A program made the position numbers and the translations under genes. Source: Candidatus Firestoneibacteriota bacterium (GTDB lineage: Bacteria > Oederibacteriota > D2-FULL-39-29 > CAIOVX01). From it: DNA of 32,207 bases. The stretch spans positions 1-32,207 of the forward strand of contig CAIWRR010000020.1 of NCBI GenBank assembly GCA_903915125.1, in the 5' to 3' direction. The notes beneath the pieces were generated by a model, which worked only from the letters and a program-made list of their open reading frames with translations, made no database searches and had not been told where the DNA came from. Of the stretch, positions 16,338-24,114 are shown piece by piece. Each line of letters starts with the position of its first letter. Within the stretch, counting starts at the first letter, position 1.

Positions 16338-17525
16338 ATGTCAGCAGTGAAATTATTGCCGGGAGTTTATTGGGTGGGAGTAGTTGACTGGAATGTAAGG
16401 GCTTTTCACGGGCATACATATATTACAAGAAGAGGTTCTACCTACAATTCTTATCTGATTGTTGACGAAAAAATCGCCCTTATTGATACCGTGTACGGGC
16501 CTTTCAGCGACCAGCTCCTCGCGAATATAGCCGAGATAGTCCCGCCTGAAAAGATAGATTATATAATCTCTAACCACGGCGAGACAGATCACTCGGGCTC
16601 GCTGCCGGCGTTGAAGAAAGCCTGTCCAAATGCGAAACACTTCGGTACCGCGAAAGTTAAAGAGACGCTGGAGAAAATGTATTATCTTGGGTTGGATCTT
16701 CACGTGGTCAAATCCGGAGATACACTCTCTTTGGGCAAGAAAACGCTCTCCTTTATTGAAGCGCCCATGCTGCACTGGCCTGATTCAATGTTTACCTATC
16801 TGGCGGAGGACGCCCTGCTTTTCCCAAACGACGCATTCGGGCAGCATATTGCGACTTCCGCGAGGTTCAACGACGAGGTTGATGCAGGTTCTTTAGTTGA
16901 AGAAGCCGAGGCTTACTTTGCGAATATTCTCTGGCCCTTTTCCTCTATGGTTGTGAAAAAAATAGACGAATTGGTCAAAATGAAGCTGCCGATTAATATG
17001 ATAGCCCCAAGCCACGGAGTGATTTGGCGCAAAGATCCGATGCGGATAGTTAACTCCTACGTTGAGTGGGCGAAGAATACAACCCGCAAGAAGGTCGTGA
17101 TAGCCTACGAGACGATGTGGGGCTCAACCGAGAAGATGGCCTACAGCATTGTTGACGGACTGGTTTCCGAAGGGGTGGAAGTAAAACTTTATGATGTTGC
17201 GCATACGGATAACACCGAAATGATACGCGAAATGCTCTATGCCCGCGGTTATATATTCGGTTCTTCAACCCACGACAATAACATGCTGCCGAACCTGGCG
17301 ATGTTCCTCGAATTCCTGAGAGGGCTGAAGCCAACCGGCAGAAAAGCGGCTGCGTTCGGTTCTTTCGGCTGGGCGGGCGGAGCCGTGAAAGAAATGGAAA
17401 GCTTCATAGCTTCTCCCGGAATAGAGATAGTTCAGCCCGGGCTAAGCGTAAAATTCGTTCCAAACCCGGCAGAACTGAAAAAGTGTTTTGACTTTGGGGT
17501 AGAATTCGCCAAAAAAATAGTTTAA
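16338..17525 (+). CDS. Flavodiiron protein (class A), O2/NO reductase
   Basis: This 395-residue protein reduces O2 to water and/or NO to N2O with electrons from rubredoxin. The N-terminal metallo-beta-lactamase-type domain has the diiron ligands: His80, Glu82, Asp84 and His85 in NHGETDH, then His146 (LHWPDS), Asp165 (PNDAFG) and His226 (SHG). The flavodoxin domain starts at about 252 with YETMWGSTEKMA as its FMN phosphate loop. There are no extra C-terminal domains, so it is class A. The rubredoxin gene follows after 41 bases and is its likely donor. It leads a cluster with rubrerythrin-like and flavoprotein genes. Its promoter and an upstream palindrome suggest regulation by a stress-sensing factor. 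Confidence 0.95.
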   Translation: MSAVKLLPGVYWVGVVDWNVRAFHGHTYITRRGSTYNSYLIVDEKIALIDTVYGPFSDQLLANIAEIVPPEKIDYIISNHGETDHSGSLPALKKACPNAKHFGTAKVKETLEKMYYLGLDLHVVKSGDTLSLGKKTLSFIEAPMLHWPDSMFTYLAEDALLFPNDAFGQHIATSARFNDEVDAGSLVEEAEAYFANILWPFSSMVVKKIDELVKMKLPINMIAPSHGVIWRKDPMRIVNSYVEWAKNTTRKKVVIAYETMWGSTEKMAYSIVDGLVSEGVEVKLYDVAHTDNTEMIREMLYARGYIFGSSTHDNNMLPNLAMFLEFLRGLKPTGRKAAAFGSFGWAGGAVKEMESFIASPGIEIVQPGLSVKFVPNPAELKKCFDFGVEFAKKIV

Positions 17526-17763: not shown

Positions 17764-18249
17764 ATGGGATTAAAATTTAACGCTGCCGAGGTGCTTGATC
17801 TTGGCGTGCAGATAGAAAAGAACGGCAAGGTTTTCTATGAAGCTGCTTCAAAGAATGCAAAAGCGGAAAACGCCAGAGTTCTCTTTGAGCATCTCTCCAA
17901 AGAAGAGGACCATCATCTTGCGGCTTTCCTTAAGATGCAGCAGAACGCCGAAAAAACAACTGAACCTGAGACCTACGAAGGCGAATACGCAGACTATGTG
18001 AGGATGCTGGCGGGCGACAACGTATTTACAAAGGCAGACGCAGGAAGAAGAGCCTCGGAGCACCTGAAAGATGATTCGGCCATAATAGAGGCCGCACTCA
18101 AATTTGAGAAGGATTCGGTAATTCTGTTTCAGGGCATGCTTGAAGGCATGCCTGAAAGAGACAAGAAGCTGGTCGAAGAGATGGTAAAGGAAGAACTTAA
18201 GCACATAAAACACCTGTACATATTAAAGAAGACCTGCGCGATCAAGTAG
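17764..18249 (+). CDS. Rubrerythrin-type ferritin-like diiron protein without rubredoxin tail
   Basis: This 161-residue protein is a four-helix ferritin-like protein. Its probable diiron ligands are Glu18 (QIEKNG), the Glu-x-x-His at 48-51 (EEDHH), Glu115 (FEKDS) and the Glu-x-x-His at 144-147 (EELKH). Rubrerythrins reduce hydrogen peroxide with electrons from rubredoxin. This one lacks the usual C-terminal rubredoxin domain, but a separate rubredoxin gene lies 35 bases upstream. A Cys occurs near the C-terminus (KKTCAIK). The context supports peroxide reduction or iron handling. Ferritin-like storage is less likely because the protein is short. Confidence 0.87.
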   Translation: MGLKFNAAEVLDLGVQIEKNGKVFYEAASKNAKAENARVLFEHLSKEEDHHLAAFLKMQQNAEKTTEPETYEGEYADYVRMLAGDNVFTKADAGRRASEHLKDDSAIIEAALKFEKDSVILFQGMLEGMPERDKKLVEEMVKEELKHIKHLYILKKTCAIK

Positions 18250-18276: not shown

Positions 18277-19203
18277 ATGCCTGAAATCTATGACGTGATA
18301 GTTATAGGCGCAGGCCCCGCCGGAATAACGGCTGCGGTTTACGCCGCCCGCAAGAAGCTCAACCTGCTTGTGGTTACGGGGGACGTCGGCGGGCAGGCCG
18401 CCTGGAGCGGCGAGGTAGAGAATTACACCGGTTTCAATATGATTTCAGGTCCGGAACTGGCATCCAAGTTTGACGAGCACTTAAAACAGTTTAATATCCC
18501 CCTCAAAGAAGCAGAAGAAACTCTCTCGTTGTCCTCTGAAAACGGAGTTTTCAAAGCAAAAACCGCAAAAGGCGTTTATCTTTCCAAATCCATAATAATA
18601 GCCTCAGGAAAAAGATCCCGCGAGATGAATGTCCCGGGAGAGAAGGAATTCAAGAATAAAGGCCTAACCTACTGCGCCACCTGCGACGGCCCTCTTTTTG
18701 CCGGAAAGGAAGTTGCCGTGATAGGGGGAGGCAATTCAGCCCTTGATGCGGCAATACAGCTCTCCCGGTATTGTTCAAAGGTCTCTGTAATAAATAATAC
18801 GCCGGCTCTTGGCGGCGACAAAATAATGAGAGAACAGGTCTTGAAGCATCCCGCGGTCTTTGTGTTAAACGGAGTTAAAGTCGAAGGCGTGCTTGGCGAA
18901 AAGTTTGTTTCAGGCCTGCGGATTTCTGGCGGGAAGGAAGGCGTCTCTGATATTCCGGTAAAAGGTATTTTTGTTGAGATAGGCCTGCTCCCGAACTCGG
19001 AATTTGCGGGGATGGTTAAACGGAATGCCTCCGGGGAAATACTTGTAGATTCGGGTTGTGCTACCGATGTGCCAGGTATATTCGCGGCCGGAGATGTTAC
19101 GAATGTTGCGGAAAAACAAATAATCATAGCTGCCGGGGAAGGCGCTAAAGCGGCGCTGGCTGCCTTTAAATATCTTGTTATGTCGGGAAAACTCGGCGGT
19201 TGA
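18277..19203 (+). CDS. Thioredoxin-reductase/AhpF-like flavoprotein
   Basis: This 308-residue FAD protein has the FAD dinucleotide fold GAGPAGITAA at 11-20, the redox pair Cys133 and Cys136 in YCATCDGPLF, a second nucleotide fold GGGNSALDAA at 150-159, and the FAD-binding end AAGDVTN. The region after the second fold (VINNTPALGGDKI) lacks the HRR and Arg residues that fix the 2'-phosphate of NADPH. It looks more like AhpF, which uses NADH. There is no N-terminal AhpF domain. It could reduce the thioredoxin of the nearby operon, a peroxiredoxin or rubredoxin; the partner is not shown by sequence. It follows the rubrerythrin-like gene by 27 bases, so it is probably in the same transcript. Confidence 0.88.
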   Translation: MPEIYDVIVIGAGPAGITAAVYAARKKLNLLVVTGDVGGQAAWSGEVENYTGFNMISGPELASKFDEHLKQFNIPLKEAEETLSLSSENGVFKAKTAKGVYLSKSIIIASGKRSREMNVPGEKEFKNKGLTYCATCDGPLFAGKEVAVIGGGNSALDAAIQLSRYCSKVSVINNTPALGGDKIMREQVLKHPAVFVLNGVKVEGVLGEKFVSGLRISGGKEGVSDIPVKGIFVEIGLLPNSEFAGMVKRNASGEILVDSGCATDVPGIFAAGDVTNVAEKQIIIAAGEGAKAALAAFKYLVMSGKLGG

Positions 19204-19255: not shown

Positions 19256-19291
19256 TAACCGAATATGTTTTTGGGTTTTCCGGGAGGGATT

Positions 19292-20482
19292 ATGAAAGAA
19301 ATTTTTCTTGATAACGCGTCGGGTACTCCGGTAGATTCACGCGTGCGGGACGCGATGCTTCCGTATCTTTTTGAGTATTTCGGAAATCCCTTGAGCATTC
19401 ACCGGTTCGGGGAGAAACCCAGAGAAGCGCTTGATAACGCCAGAAAGCAGGTCGCAGCGCTCATTAACGCGGACCCTTCGGAGATCTATTTCACGTCTAA
19501 TGCGTCAGAGTCAAATAATATGGCCGTGAAAGGCGTCGGGCTTGCCAATCAATCGAAAGGAAAACATGTTATTATCTCTGCTATTGAACATTTTTCCGTA
19601 ATGAACGCGGCTAAGACCCTGGAGAAGCTCGGTTTCCAAACCAGTTTTCTGCCGGTTGATAAAAGAGGCATTGCAGCGGTAGAAGCCCTCAGAGGTCTCG
19701 TGACTGACGGGACAGTACTTCTTTCCGTAATGCACGCCAATCACGAAGTGGGGACCATACAGCCGGTAATGGAACTCGCGGGTGTAATCAGGGAAATAAA
19801 CGCGGAAAGGAAAGCGAAGAGCCTTCCTCAGATAATATTCCATTCGGACGCAGTTCAAACGGTTGGCACGCTGCCCGTTGATGTGAAAGAGCTGGGTGTT
19901 GACTTGCTGACCTTTTCTGGTTCCCAGTTTTACGGGCCAAAAGGCGCTGCGGCTCTATATATAAAGAAAGGTGTTCGCGTATTCCCGCTAATTGACGGCG
20001 GCATTCAGGAAGAAGGAAAACGCGCCGGTACAGAGAACATCCCGGCTATTGTCGGAATGGGAAAAGCCGCGGAATTGATAATGCCGGAGATAGCCGCTAA
20101 TGGCGCAAAGATGGAAGCGCTTCGCGACGAGCTGATAAAGGGAATTCTCTCAACAATAAAGTATTCCAGGCTTAACGGCGACGCGAAACTCAGGCTGCCG
20201 GTAAATGTGAATATTTCAATAGAATTCATTGAAGGCGAATCTATGCTGATGTTTCTTGACGGCGAAGGTATAGCCGCTTCTTCCGGTTCAGCGTGTACTT
20301 CAAAAGCCTTAAAGGCCTCTCACGTCCTGCTTTCAATAGGCGTGCCCGTAGAGATTTGTCACGGCTCAATTCTTTTCTCGCTGAACAAATACACCGCGAA
20401 AGAAGATGTGGAGAAGGTGCTCTCGGTCTTCCCCGGCATCGTTGAGAGATTGAGGAAGATGAGCCCGTTGTGGAAAGGGTGA
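19292..20482 (+). CDS. Cysteine desulfurase homologue lacking the PLP lysine
   Basis: This 396-residue protein is a class V aminotransferase-fold homologue of IscS/NifS. The PLP-stacking His100 (IEHFS), Asp186 and Gln189 (SDAVQT), the RAGTEN segment and the catalytic loop Cys335 (SSGSACTS) are all present. However, the HK of the usual SGHKLYGPKG is SQ here (SGSQFYGPKG). Gln212 (codon CAG, 19925-19927) therefore replaces the lysine that forms the aldimine with PLP. Archaeoglobus fulgidus IscS also lacks this Lys (Asp instead), so this may be a related subfamily; its ending IVERLRKMSPLWK seems to fit that group. The gene precedes dsrE-like and tusA genes, suggesting a sulfur relay. I preferred the ATG at 19292 (GGGAGGG at 19282-19288) over an ATG at 19265 with no ribosome site. 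Confidence 0.85.
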   Translation: MKEIFLDNASGTPVDSRVRDAMLPYLFEYFGNPLSIHRFGEKPREALDNARKQVAALINADPSEIYFTSNASESNNMAVKGVGLANQSKGKHVIISAIEHFSVMNAAKTLEKLGFQTSFLPVDKRGIAAVEALRGLVTDGTVLLSVMHANHEVGTIQPVMELAGVIREINAERKAKSLPQIIFHSDAVQTVGTLPVDVKELGVDLLTFSGSQFYGPKGAAALYIKKGVRVFPLIDGGIQEEGKRAGTENIPAIVGMGKAAELIMPEIAANGAKMEALRDELIKGILSTIKYSRLNGDAKLRLPVNVNISIEFIEGESMLMFLDGEGIAASSGSACTSKALKASHVLLSIGVPVEICHGSILFSLNKYTAKEDVEKVLSVFPGIVERLRKMSPLWKG

Positions 20483-20538: not shown

Positions 20539-21021
20539 ATGGCAGATAGCAATAAAATGACGATTATACTTTTTTCGGGCGAGATGGATAAGGCGCTCGC
20601 GGCTTTTACGCTGGCTACGACAGCAGCATCCATGGGAATTAAGGTGAGTATTTTCTTCACCTTCTGGGGATTGAGCGTGCTCCGTAACGGCGGGATGCTC
20701 GCGAAGAAAACTAATTTCCTTCAGAAGATGTTTGGCTTTCTGAACCGCGGGACCAAAGAGAGTCTGCCGCTTACAAAGTTTAATTTTGCCGGCGCCGGCC
20801 CGGAAATGATGAAACTGCTGATGAAACAGAAGAAGATGGCCTCGCTGCCGGAACTCTTCAAGCTTTCAAGGGAGTTGGGAGTAAAGTTCATTGCCTGCAC
20901 TACCTCATGCAACGTAATGGGGCTTGATCGCGAGGCGCTCGTGCCGGAAGTTGACGAAATGGCTGGCGCGGCCACCTATCTCGGCGAAGCAAAGGAATCC
21001 AACATAAATCTATTTGTTTAA
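20539..21021 (+). CDS. DsrE/DsrF-like sulfur-carrier protein
   Basis: This 160-residue protein belongs to the DsrE/DsrF/DsrH-like fold family (YrkE-type). It begins with a strand-helix, KMTIILFSGEMDKALAAF, and ends with the family's cysteine loop ACTTSCNVMGLD, where Cys120 and Cys124 could carry a persulfide. A middle segment of Met, Lys and Gly is typical of the family's membrane- or partner-contacting hairpin. It sits between the desulfurase homologue and tusA. In other bacteria DsrE-type and TusA proteins pass sulfane sulfur to each other, and I infer the same here. It has no signal peptide. Confidence 0.88.
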   Translation: MADSNKMTIILFSGEMDKALAAFTLATTAASMGIKVSIFFTFWGLSVLRNGGMLAKKTNFLQKMFGFLNRGTKESLPLTKFNFAGAGPEMMKLLMKQKKMASLPELFKLSRELGVKFIACTTSCNVMGLDREALVPEVDEMAGAATYLGEAKESNINLFV

Positions 21022-21090: not shown

Positions 21091-21330
21091 ATGGAAGGTA
21101 TTCAACCTGCTCAAACCCTCGATTGCGTCGGCCTTTACTGCCCGGTTCCGATAATCAAGACTACTCAAAAAATAAAAGAAATGAAGACCGGTGAAGTCCT
21201 CGAAGTTGAAGCGGATGACGAAGGTATCCTTAGCGATATGCCGGCCTGGTGTAAGACTACAGGCAACATCTATGAGGGCGGGGAAAAGACGGCAGACGGC
21301 ATAGTTAAAGTATATGTAAGAAAAGTTTAG
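21091..21330 (+). CDS. tusA: TusA-family sulfur carrier
   Basis: This 79-residue protein has the TusA two-layer fold and the signature CPVP, with Cys17 as the persulfide-carrying residue in LYCPVPI. TusA takes sulfane sulfur from a cysteine desulfurase and passes it on for thiouridine, molybdenum cofactor or other sulfur transfer. The neighbours fit a relay: desulfurase homologue, then DsrE-like, then TusA. It ends 8 bases before the KorA start, so it is probably co-transcribed with korAB. AGGAGAA precedes the ATG. An extra Cys12 occurs five residues before the active Cys. Confidence 0.92.
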   Translation: MEGIQPAQTLDCVGLYCPVPIIKTTQKIKEMKTGEVLEVEADDEGILSDMPAWCKTTGNIYEGGEKTADGIVKVYVRKV

Positions 21331-21338
21331 GGGGATTC

Positions 21339-23054
21339 TTGACAAAGGACATAACGGTCGGAATTTCAGGCGCCGCCGGGATGGGGATGCAGTCCATCTC
21401 GTTCACGCTCGCGAAGAGTTTCTTGCGGGCAGGTTACAATGTTTTTGTCTGGCAGGATGTGATGTCCCGCATAAGGGGCGGCAATAACACCTCCATGATC
21501 CGCATTTCTACCTCTCCGGTAAATTCCCTGAAAGAAGACTTTGACGTTCTGGTGGCCCTTGATCTGCTTGCCATAAAGCGAAATGCCCTGAAAGTGAAGG
21601 CGGGCGGATTCCTGATTTATGACGGGGAGAAACAGAGGGCGGAAGAACCCAAAGCCGGCTGGATCTCCGTGCCTTTTGAAAAACTCGCGGCAGAAGCGGG
21701 CGGCGACAAGATAATGATGAACTCCGTGGCTACCGGGGCGGTGCTATCGCTGCTCGGAGCAGAAGTAGTAAAAGAGTGTGAAGGCGTAATAACCGAGCTT
21801 TTCTCAAAAAAAGGTGAAACTGTTATTTCCGGCAACCTCCGGGCGCTCAAGTCGGGTATAGCGGCGGTAACGCCGGGTGTTTCAGGAAAGTTCATGCTGG
21901 CTCCCACCTTGAAAATAAATTCAAAAAATAAAGCGCTGATAAACGGCAGCGAGGCGCTAGGCTTGGGAGCGGTTTCCGCGGGCCTGAAGTTTTATTCCGG
22001 TTACCCGATGTCTCCCGCTACTTCAATAATGGAATATGTCGCGGCAAAAGCGCGCGAATACGGCATCGTTCTGGAACAGGCAGAGGACGAGATCGCGGCG
22101 ATTAATATGGCTATCGGAGCGGGGTATGGCGGAGTCCGCGCAATGACCTGCACCTCCGGCGGCGGTTTCGCGCTTATGATAGAGGGTGTGAGCCTTGCCG
22201 GCATGACGGAAACCCCGGTTGTTATTGGTATCTCCCAGCGGCCCGGGCCCGCGACGGGTTTTCCGACAAGGACGGAACAGGGAGACCTCAATATGGTACT
22301 CTTCGCGGGGCATGGCGATTTTGCCAGAGTTGTACTGGCTCCTGCAACCGCGGCAGACGGCCCGCTGATTATGAGCAGGGCTTTTAACCTTGCGGAGAAA
22401 TATCAGGTCCCGGTGTTTGTTCTCTCAGATCAGTATTATAATGACTCCAGTTTCTCGGTAGATTTAGCTGAGGTTAGAGTTGAGCCGGTAAACAGGGGAG
22501 GAGTTCTCGCGGAATTTCCGGGAAGTTACAACTATAAACGCTACGACTTGTCTGCCGGGCGTGTTTCGCCGCGCCTGATACCAGGCGCAAAAGACCAGGT
22601 TGTGTACGCGGACAGTGATGAGCATACCGAGGAAGGCCATATCACAGAATCCGCGGAGCTGCGTGTTCAAATGGTCGACAAGCGAGCCGGGAAAATCGCG
22701 GAGATAGTGCCCGATATGGAACAACCTTTTTACTTTGGAAGTGAAAACCCGGAAACTGTTCTCGTGAGCTGGGGTTCTTCCTTTGGAGCGGTTAAGGAAG
22801 CGGCAGACCTGCTGAACGCGTCGGGAAAGCCTGCGGGAATTCTTCACTTTACGAACATCTGGCCGCTGCCGGAAATAAAATTTAAGTTCAACGAATCAGC
22901 CGTAAAAAGCTTCATTTGCGCAGAGAATAATTATTCTGGGCAGTTCGCTGACCTGCTGGAAAAAAATACGAAACTGCGTTTCAGCGGGCGGATCTTAAGA
23001 TATGACGGGCATCCTTTGACAGCCGAATACATTGTTGGAGGGTTGGAGGGTTAG
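21339..23054 (+). CDS. korA: 2-oxoacid:ferredoxin oxidoreductase, fused gamma-alpha subunit
   Basis: This 571-residue protein joins the gamma domain (about 1-190, GISGAAGMGMQS and SRIRGGNN) to the alpha domain (from about 200, YSGYPMSPATSIMEY). With the beta subunit it decarboxylates a 2-oxoacid to acyl-CoA and reduces ferredoxin. The gamma-alpha fusion is typical of two-subunit Kor/For-type enzymes. Whether 2-oxoglutarate, pyruvate or a branched-chain acid is the substrate is not decided by sequence. The start is a TTG with AGGGGGA before it. The last residues, GGLEG and the stop, are encoded by the 8-bp repeat that follows, so the extreme C-terminus may have been changed by repeat spread. 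Confidence 0.9.
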   Translation: MTKDITVGISGAAGMGMQSISFTLAKSFLRAGYNVFVWQDVMSRIRGGNNTSMIRISTSPVNSLKEDFDVLVALDLLAIKRNALKVKAGGFLIYDGEKQRAEEPKAGWISVPFEKLAAEAGGDKIMMNSVATGAVLSLLGAEVVKECEGVITELFSKKGETVISGNLRALKSGIAAVTPGVSGKFMLAPTLKINSKNKALINGSEALGLGAVSAGLKFYSGYPMSPATSIMEYVAAKAREYGIVLEQAEDEIAAINMAIGAGYGGVRAMTCTSGGGFALMIEGVSLAGMTETPVVIGISQRPGPATGFPTRTEQGDLNMVLFAGHGDFARVVLAPATAADGPLIMSRAFNLAEKYQVPVFVLSDQYYNDSSFSVDLAEVRVEPVNRGGVLAEFPGSYNYKRYDLSAGRVSPRLIPGAKDQVVYADSDEHTEEGHITESAELRVQMVDKRAGKIAEIVPDMEQPFYFGSENPETVLVSWGSSFGAVKEAADLLNASGKPAGILHFTNIWPLPEIKFKFNESAVKSFICAENNYSGQFADLLEKNTKLRFSGRILRYDGHPLTAEYIVGGLEG

Positions 23055-23253: not shown

Positions 23254-24114
23254 ATGGTTTTAGCAAGCGCATATAACAGCGCAGACGATAATGCCTGGTG
23301 CCCGGGCTGCGGCAACTTCGGCGTGCTTCAGGCCCTCAAACTGGCGTTGGCCGGTCTCAATCTGGAACCCTGGCAGGTTATTATGGTTTCAGGTATAGGG
23401 CAAGCTGCAAAGATACCTCATTATCTTAAAGTAAACTGTTTCAACGGCCTTCACGGCCGCACGATGCCAGCGGCGTTCGGCGCGAAAATGGCCAATCACA
23501 AAATGACGGTTATTGCGGCAGGGGGCGACGGGGATGCTTACGCGGAAGGCGGCAACCACTTCGTTCACGCCATGAGGCGCAACCCGGACATAACCTACCT
23601 GGTGCACGATAATCAGATTTACGGTTTGACTAAAGGGCAGGCCTCGCCAACGACAGGTTTGGGAACACTGACTGGAACTACTCCGTTCGGAAGCGTGGAT
23701 ATTCCGGAGAGCCCGCTCGCCGTGGCGGTTGCCATGGATTGCAGTTTTGTTGCGCGCGGTTTTGCCGGAGATATAGAGCATCTCTCGAAGATAATAGCAG
23801 CCGCCGTCAAGCATCGCGGTTTTTCCCTGGTTGATATTCTACAGCCGTGTGTCACGTTTAACAAGGTGAATACCTACCAGTGGTATAAGGAAAGGGTTTA
23901 TAATCTTGACGAGGACGCGGCATACGATCCGAAGGACCGGAATAAAGCGTTCACAAAAGCGCTGGAGTGGGGCGACAGGATACCGACAGGCATTATTTAC
24001 AAACGCGAACGCCCTGTATTTGAAGATTCTGTTTTTAAGCCGGCGGACAAGTCGCTTTCAAGGCAGCCGTTTACCCCGCCTGACTCTTTGGAATTGATGA
24101 GGAAATATGCCTAG
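23254..24114 (+). CDS. korB: 2-oxoacid:ferredoxin oxidoreductase, beta (TPP) subunit
   Basis: This 286-residue protein is the thiamine-diphosphate subunit. WCPGCGNFG is at 15-23, and its Cys16 and Cys19 may bind the iron-sulfur cluster with a later Cys. GIGQAAKIPHYL follows, then the TPP/Mg motif GDGDAYAEGGNHF at 91-103 and the LVHDNQIYGLTKGQ segment that completes the site. It pairs with the fused KorA just upstream. The 199-base repeat-filled spacer separates them, but a strong G-rich ribosome site (AAGGGGGGGG) precedes this ATG. It overlaps the TPR gene by 8 bases. No separate ferredoxin-type delta subunit is present. Confidence 0.93.
   Translation: MVLASAYNSADDNAWCPGCGNFGVLQALKLALAGLNLEPWQVIMVSGIGQAAKIPHYLKVNCFNGLHGRTMPAAFGAKMANHKMTVIAAGGDGDAYAEGGNHFVHAMRRNPDITYLVHDNQIYGLTKGQASPTTGLGTLTGTTPFGSVDIPESPLAVAVAMDCSFVARGFAGDIEHLSKIIAAAVKHRGFSLVDILQPCVTFNKVNTYQWYKERVYNLDEDAAYDPKDRNKAFTKALEWGDRIPTGIIYKRERPVFEDSVFKPADKSLSRQPFTPPDSLELMRKYA

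Follow-up and report, generated by a model that had tools for sequence, protein, structure and literature searches.

What use does a cell have for a cysteine desulfurase without desulfurase activity, and what is the source of the sulfur in that case? This question was posed by the structure of the IscS-IscU complex of Archaeoglobus fulgidus. It is raised again by the gene at positions 19,292 to 20,482 of a contig from a Candidatus Firestoneibacteriota bacterium (CAIWRR010000020.1, assembly GCA_903915125.1; the whole stretch of 32,207 nucleotides that was analysed is called the window). The gene encodes an IscS homologue without the PLP-binding lysine, here named IscS*. Lys-less IscS proteins have been described before, in A. 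fulgidus and in Methanosarcina (M. acetivorans IscS1). The open-access papers searched contain no report of a bacterial Lys-less clade, of a substrate arginine lost together with the lysine, or of TusA and DsrE genes as linked neighbours. The presence of TusA and DsrE beside nearly every Lys-less IscS, in archaea as well as in the bacterial clade, offers a testable answer to the question and bears on the building of Fe-S clusters by anaerobes of sulfide-rich habitats.

The gene and its product

The IscS* reading frame is uninterrupted over 396 amino acids. A GGGAGGG motif lies a few bases 5' of the start at 19,292, and a second in-frame ATG is located further upstream, at 19,265. Based on the codons and the alignment to E. 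coli IscS, the following features were assigned:

19,292-20,482, + strand: IscS*, Lys-less IscS homologue, 396 aa, Aminotran_5 fold (PF00266, 227 bits)
19,916-19,945, + strand: motif SGSQFYGPKG
19,922-19,924, + strand: Ser211 in place of His205
19,925-19,927, + strand: Gln212 (CAG) in place of the PLP-binding Lys206
20,294-20,296, + strand: Cys335 (TGT), loop cysteine, equivalent to E. coli C328
20,372-20,374, + strand: Leu361 in place of the substrate-carboxylate arginine (E. coli IscS R354)

In this alignment, His100 corresponds to H104, Asp186 to D180, Gln189 to Q183, Cys335 to C328 and Gln212 to K206, so that the residue assignments and the motif given in an earlier note on this DNA are correct. 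Thr247 (E. coli Thr243) is also kept. Beyond what that note described, His205, Asn155 (His151 in IscS*) and Arg354 are replaced as well, the trait marks a whole clade, and the linkage to DsrE and TusA is conserved. In active desulfurases the loop cysteine is the persulfide carrier, and in cysteine desulfurases the equivalent of Arg354 anchors the substrate carboxylate. The residue pattern fits a protein that would have lost cysteine desulfurase chemistry and kept a sulfur-carrying or metal-binding cysteine.

The AlphaFold model of IscS* (pLDDT 88.9) has as its nearest solved folds in Foldseek the A. fulgidus IscS entries 4r5f, 4hvk and 4eb7, alone and with IscU. With a TM-score of about 0.9 against IscS entries, it is a fold type I, Aminotran_5 protein. 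Its scores stay below the NCBIfam equivalog cut-offs, both for FeS_nifS (479 bits vs 531) and for IscS (388 vs 643). Judged from its residues, IscS* is, as an enzyme, outside what is called a cysteine desulfurase, and its fold and partner set would work like an IscS hub. By the same reasoning, many proteins that are likely annotated as 'cysteine desulfurase NifS/IscS' would be unable to have that activity.

The nearest relatives of IscS* are found in Candidatus Firestonebacteria MAGs. The codon at the Gln212 position is likewise CAG in a homologue of 95% identity from a different MAG; glutamine is found there in two further relatives of the window's genus, and serine in five sister-family genomes. 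As independent relatives carry CAG or serine codons, a sequencing error at 19,922-19,927, which the earlier note had named as a refutation of its idea, is ruled out. Compared with the 95% relative, dN is 0.021 and dS 0.59 (dN/dS of about 0.04), which indicates purifying selection on the gene. Together with the open frame, this bears out the claim that the gene is not decayed. A lone oddity of the window's genome is ruled out too, since the Lys-less gene is present in 9/9 genomes of the order.

Bacterial and archaeal Lys-less proteins

The distribution of the trait was analysed in an alignment of 127 bacterial relatives, including E. coli IscS and one solved reference, with A. fulgidus treated apart. 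At least 56 of these relatives are without the PLP-binding lysine (47 Gln, 4 Pro, 3 Met, 1 Ser and 1 Val), while 71/127 have lysine, some of these 71 being archaeal Lys-type copies. According to their record titles, the Lys-less members belong to Firestonebacteria, Chloroflexota (mostly Dehalococcoidia), Aerophobetes, Elusimicrobia, Nitrospirae, Actinomycetota and Deltaproteobacteria. A careful tree, built from a representative subset, unites them in one clade with a support of 100/98, which persists with a support of 97/96 when the trait columns are deleted. The Lys-less subfamily that had been proposed from the window is therefore a well-supported group. PDB 9wep, a solved cysteine desulfurase of which several sequence variants are deposited, is a Lys-type sister to this clade and thereby useful for reference. 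A single strict DNA pattern for QFYGPKG matched only the reference in a sample of 81 Chloroflexota genomes; given its strictness, this result reflects the patchiness of the family and not its absence. A plasmid search returned only IscS/NifS relatives below 60% identity, none of them specific to the IscS* family.

The archaeal set consisted of the best matches from 148 genomes of one phylum, with a few Methanomicrobiales copies added. It comprises 22 proteins with aspartate at the lysine position and 12 Lys-type proteins. One of the genomes is that of A. fulgidus (100% identity to 4eb5), in which both IscS copies are Asp-type. The parallel with A. fulgidus IscS, given in the earlier note as lacking the lysine, is correct: 4eb5 has the motif SSNDIYGPKG and, as summarised in PMC7585200, this IscS shows no desulfurase activity and ligates the IscU cluster. 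The archaeal Asp-type proteins form a clade with a support of 100/99, separate from the bacterial clade in the best tree. A joint bacterial and archaeal Lys-less clade is 24.8 log units worse than the best tree, but the AU test does not reject it (p 0.126). The Lys-less state would accordingly have one or two origins, two if the best tree is right.

In both domains, the lysine and the substrate arginine are lost together (bacteria 56/56 vs 0/71; archaea 22/22 vs 0/12). The Arg354 position is L, V or I in all 56 bacterial Lys-less proteins and R in 71/71 Lys-type proteins; in archaea it is L, V, I or E in 22/22 Asp-type and Arg in 12/12 Lys-type proteins. The loop cysteine is present in 56/56 bacterial Lys-less proteins. 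The IscU-contact positions E309, E311 and L380 are retained in the Lys-less proteins, and W45 and R237, which are TusA contacts in E. coli IscS, differ in the bacterial clade.

One could argue that IscS* still carries out PLP chemistry on cysteine or another substrate, with PLP bound non-covalently or on a substitute lysine such as Lys341. Of the PLP-site residues, His100, Asp186 and Thr247 are indeed kept, and position 341 is lysine in 52/56 (93%) of the bacterial Lys-less proteins, compared with 1% of the Lys-type ones. However, the arginine for the substrate carboxylate is gone in all members, and the equivalents of His205, Asn155 and Gln183, which contact the PLP phosphate or ring, are mostly replaced across the bacterial clade. 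The check for another conserved lysine that could form the aldimine returned K341 as the sole class-specific one, and this residue is absent in four bacterial members (L014, L030, L033, L044) and is Gln in A. fulgidus IscS2. The case for a substitute aldimine lysine is therefore weak, and retained PLP chemistry is considered improbable.

Lys341 is part of the Cys loop, which has class-specific basic residues in the bacterial Lys-less proteins (residues 338/341, about 20,303-20,314). Position 338 is R or K in 56/56 of them, while G/A/S and E/D predominate at these two positions in the Lys-type proteins. These basic residues may shape a persulfide or partner dock.

Gene neighbourhood

Around IscS*, the window contains the following genes:

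16,338-17,525, + strand: flavodiiron protein (FprA-like), recurrent neighbour
17,764-18,249, + strand: rubrerythrin-like protein (PF02915), recurrent neighbour
18,277-19,203, + strand: thioredoxin-reductase-like flavoprotein with CATC (TIGR01292, 289 bits, under the family cut-off)
20,539-21,021, + strand: DsrE2-type sulfurtransferase, 160 aa, Cys120 in CTTSC (PF13686, 178 bits)
21,091-21,330, + strand: TusA-type sulfur carrier, 79 aa, Cys17 in CPxP (PF01206, 76 bits)
21,339-23,054, + strand: 2-oxoacid:ferredoxin oxidoreductase alpha, fused gamma-alpha (TIGR03710, 606 bits)
23,254-24,114, + strand: 2-oxoacid:ferredoxin oxidoreductase beta (TIGR02177, 371 bits)

For the bacterial genes with enough downstream sequence (44 Lys-less and 62 Lys-type), neighbours were counted within 4 kb. 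TusA is linked to 41/44 Lys-less genes and to 1/62 Lys-type genes (Fisher p 1e-24), and DsrE2 to 39/44 and 3/62, respectively (Fisher p 6e-20), the sequences in both comparisons not being independent. IscU is found at 34/44 Lys-less and 34/62 Lys-type genes. For archaea, the count took in genes of the same strand up to 1.5 kb away: TusA is linked in 18/22 Asp-type vs 0/12 Lys-type loci, a DsrE homologue in 15/22 vs 0/12 and IscU in 21/22 vs 9/12. Since the sequences within a clade are not independent, these counts represent at most two origins. The desulfurase-DsrE-TusA cluster seen in the window is thus confirmed as an arrangement far commoner for Lys-less than for Lys-type IscS.

The linkage is kept over great distances and with differing gene orders, being TusA-DsrE-IscS*-IscU in archaea and IscS*-DsrE2-TusA in the window. 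Among the cluster proteins the donor cysteines are conserved (DsrE2 38/38, TusA 46/46), as are the cluster-ligand residues in the IscU proteins of the loci. In A. fulgidus, one IscS copy adjoins TusA and DsrE genes and the other a DsrE gene; the DsrE matches PF02635 and the TusA PF01206. In some Dehalococcoidia (L023, L027, L031, L048, L050), IscS*, IscU and TusA come in this order, and after them a shorter, diverged DsrE-like gene of about 122 aa takes the place of DsrE2.

The thioredoxin-reductase-like gene is close to IscS* in 9/44 bacterial and three archaeal loci, and the 2-oxoacid:ferredoxin oxidoreductase alpha gene in 8/44 bacterial loci. Genes for thioredoxin-reductase-like, flavodiiron or 2-oxoacid:ferredoxin oxidoreductase proteins recur in L010, L011, L022, L183-L186 and L238, which are bacterial and in some cases archaeal.

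No IscU was found within 4 kb of IscS* in the window's lineage; the single IscU of the window's MAG lies on another contig, which makes an IscU step indirect for the window.

Second, Lys-type IscS copies

Most of the 50 genomes with a Lys-less gene also carry a Lys-type IscS. In the window's order, a second IscS-type copy is present in 7/9 genomes, and the retrieved ones are Lys-type. The second, Lys-containing IscS that the earlier note suggested looking for therefore exists in the order. The MAG of the window itself, which is 88% complete, yielded none, an absence that is probably due to incompleteness, since the relatives have one. With regard to SUF as an alternative assembly route, no SufB was found in five Firestonebacteria genomes.

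These copies bring up a further explanation, in which IscS* pairs with the cell's own Lys-type IscS as a heterodimer, the latter making the persulfide and IscS* redirecting it to DsrE/TusA. The co-occurrence in most genomes would agree with this, as would the distance of only a few kb between the two genes in L017, L030, L036, L037 and L053. E. coli TusA, moreover, binds one IscS subunit and reaches Cys328 of the other (PMC2854127). In the Firestonebacteria order, on the other hand, the Lys-type copies checked are unlinked to IscU, DsrE and TusA. Both IscS-type copies of A. fulgidus are Asp-type, so no Lys-type partner from this protein family is required there. An obligate heterodimer is consequently disfavoured, and the explanation as a whole is regarded as very improbable, slightly more so than retained PLP chemistry.

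Proposed role of IscS*

The residue pattern and the neighbourhood somewhat favour a reading in which a cysteine desulfurase has become, in IscS*, a sulfur hub that no longer desulfurates and acts as a persulfide relay or cluster ligand. Sulfane sulfur from the oxidation of sulfide or polysulfide, or from a Lys-type IscS, would be loaded on Cys120 of DsrE2 and Cys17 of TusA. Cys335 in the loop of IscS* would then receive the DsrE2/TusA persulfide and hand the sulfur on to IscU for Fe-S assembly. Alternatively or additionally, Cys335 might be the fourth ligand of a nascent [2Fe-2S] cluster, as in the (IscS-IscU)2 structure of A. fulgidus. On one and the same fold, sulfur would move from TusA to IscS*, opposite to E. 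coli, where IscS hands it to TusA. We infer this direction; genomic linkage does not supply one. With respect to DsrE and TusA, IscS* would act as a receiver or scaffold of sulfur. This suggests that some anaerobes supply Fe-S assembly without cysteine at the IscS* step. More tentatively, and with a probability that we place below that of the hub itself, sulfur may enter ISC assembly of anaerobic bacteria and archaea independently of cysteine, with DsrE/TusA loading sulfide-derived sulfane sulfur on an enzymatically dead desulfurase fold. If the best tree is right, this route would have evolved separately in the two domains.

The hub reading is weakened by the missing IscU linkage in the window's lineage, by the changed TusA-contact positions W45 and R237 and by the patchiness of the family. 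Several published observations support it. In E. coli IscS, the TusA and IscU sites compete around the Cys328 loop, with one partner bound at a time (PMC2854127). In anaerobic E. coli, H2S substitutes for IscS in assembly on IscU (PMC13015791). For DsrEFH, Cys78 of DsrE is a proven persulfide donor (PMC3397948).

A narrower explanation is that IscS* carries no sulfur at all and is a structural partner, the loop cysteine of which is a temporary [2Fe-2S] ligand on IscU, while DsrE/TusA bring sulfur straight to IscU or elsewhere. This corresponds to the A. fulgidus model as summarised in PMC7585200, in which IscS gives a Cys ligand and no sulfur. It is in line with the IscS* model being nearest to the A. 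fulgidus IscS folds and with the adjacency of IscU in most loci (archaea 21/22, bacteria 34/44). By itself, however, it leaves the near-fixed TusA/DsrE linkage unexplained. In Firestonebacteria, Aerophobetes (L010), L016 and L039, IscS*, DsrE2 and TusA are linked without IscU, so that in these cases the linkage to the sulfurtransferases is kept more consistently. The relay reading is therefore rated above this ligand-only explanation, which we consider rather unlikely.

Comparison with known systems

A. fulgidus IscS2 (PDB 4eb5, 4eb7 and 4hvk; D199K mutant 4r5f) has the same fold as IscS*, with TM-scores of 0.90-0.97. Both have lost the PLP-binding lysine and the substrate arginine, have kept the loop cysteine and have TusA/DsrE genes adjacent. 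They differ in the residue at the lysine position (Asp in A. fulgidus, Gln in IscS*), in the gene order given above and in IscU, which is adjacent in A. fulgidus and missing beside IscS* in the window's lineage, although most members of the bacterial clade have it. The archaeal IscS1 of M. acetivorans (MA0808), compared by its description only, is also without the catalytic lysine, and its gene is reported to form a cluster with iscU1 plus four genes whose function is unknown (PMC7585200).

The E. coli IscS/Tus relay (PDB 3lvj, 3lvl) resembles IscS* in its fold, its loop cysteine and its IscU and TusA partners. Unlike IscS*, E. coli IscS has Lys206, His205 and Arg354; it generates the persulfide itself, from cysteine, and TusA receives it. 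The DsrE/DsrE2-TusA trafficking of sulfur oxidisers (Allochromatium vinosum) uses sulfurtransferases with donor cysteines like those beside IscS*, but the known acceptor is DsrC with dissimilatory sulfite reductase and not an IscS fold (PMC3397948). The minimal ISC system MIS (MisSU) is a short IscS and IscU set without chaperones, similar to the IscS* sets; in the description given in PMC11559095, however, MisS is a cysteine desulfurase, unlike IscS*.

Two minor observations concern the partners. IscU proteins beside a Lys-less IscS favour the motifs CGDMM and LPKNKxHCSN, whereas those beside a Lys-type IscS favour CGDIM and LPPIKMHCSV, a contrast that hints at partner-specific change. Near the A. 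fulgidus TusA-DsrE-IscS*-IscU genes lies a SepSecS/Aminotran_5 gene (L230:397-1563), possibly a Sep-tRNA:Cys-tRNA synthase, with a DsrE2-like gene in between; tRNA-dependent synthesis of cysteine might thus be a further outlet of the relay.
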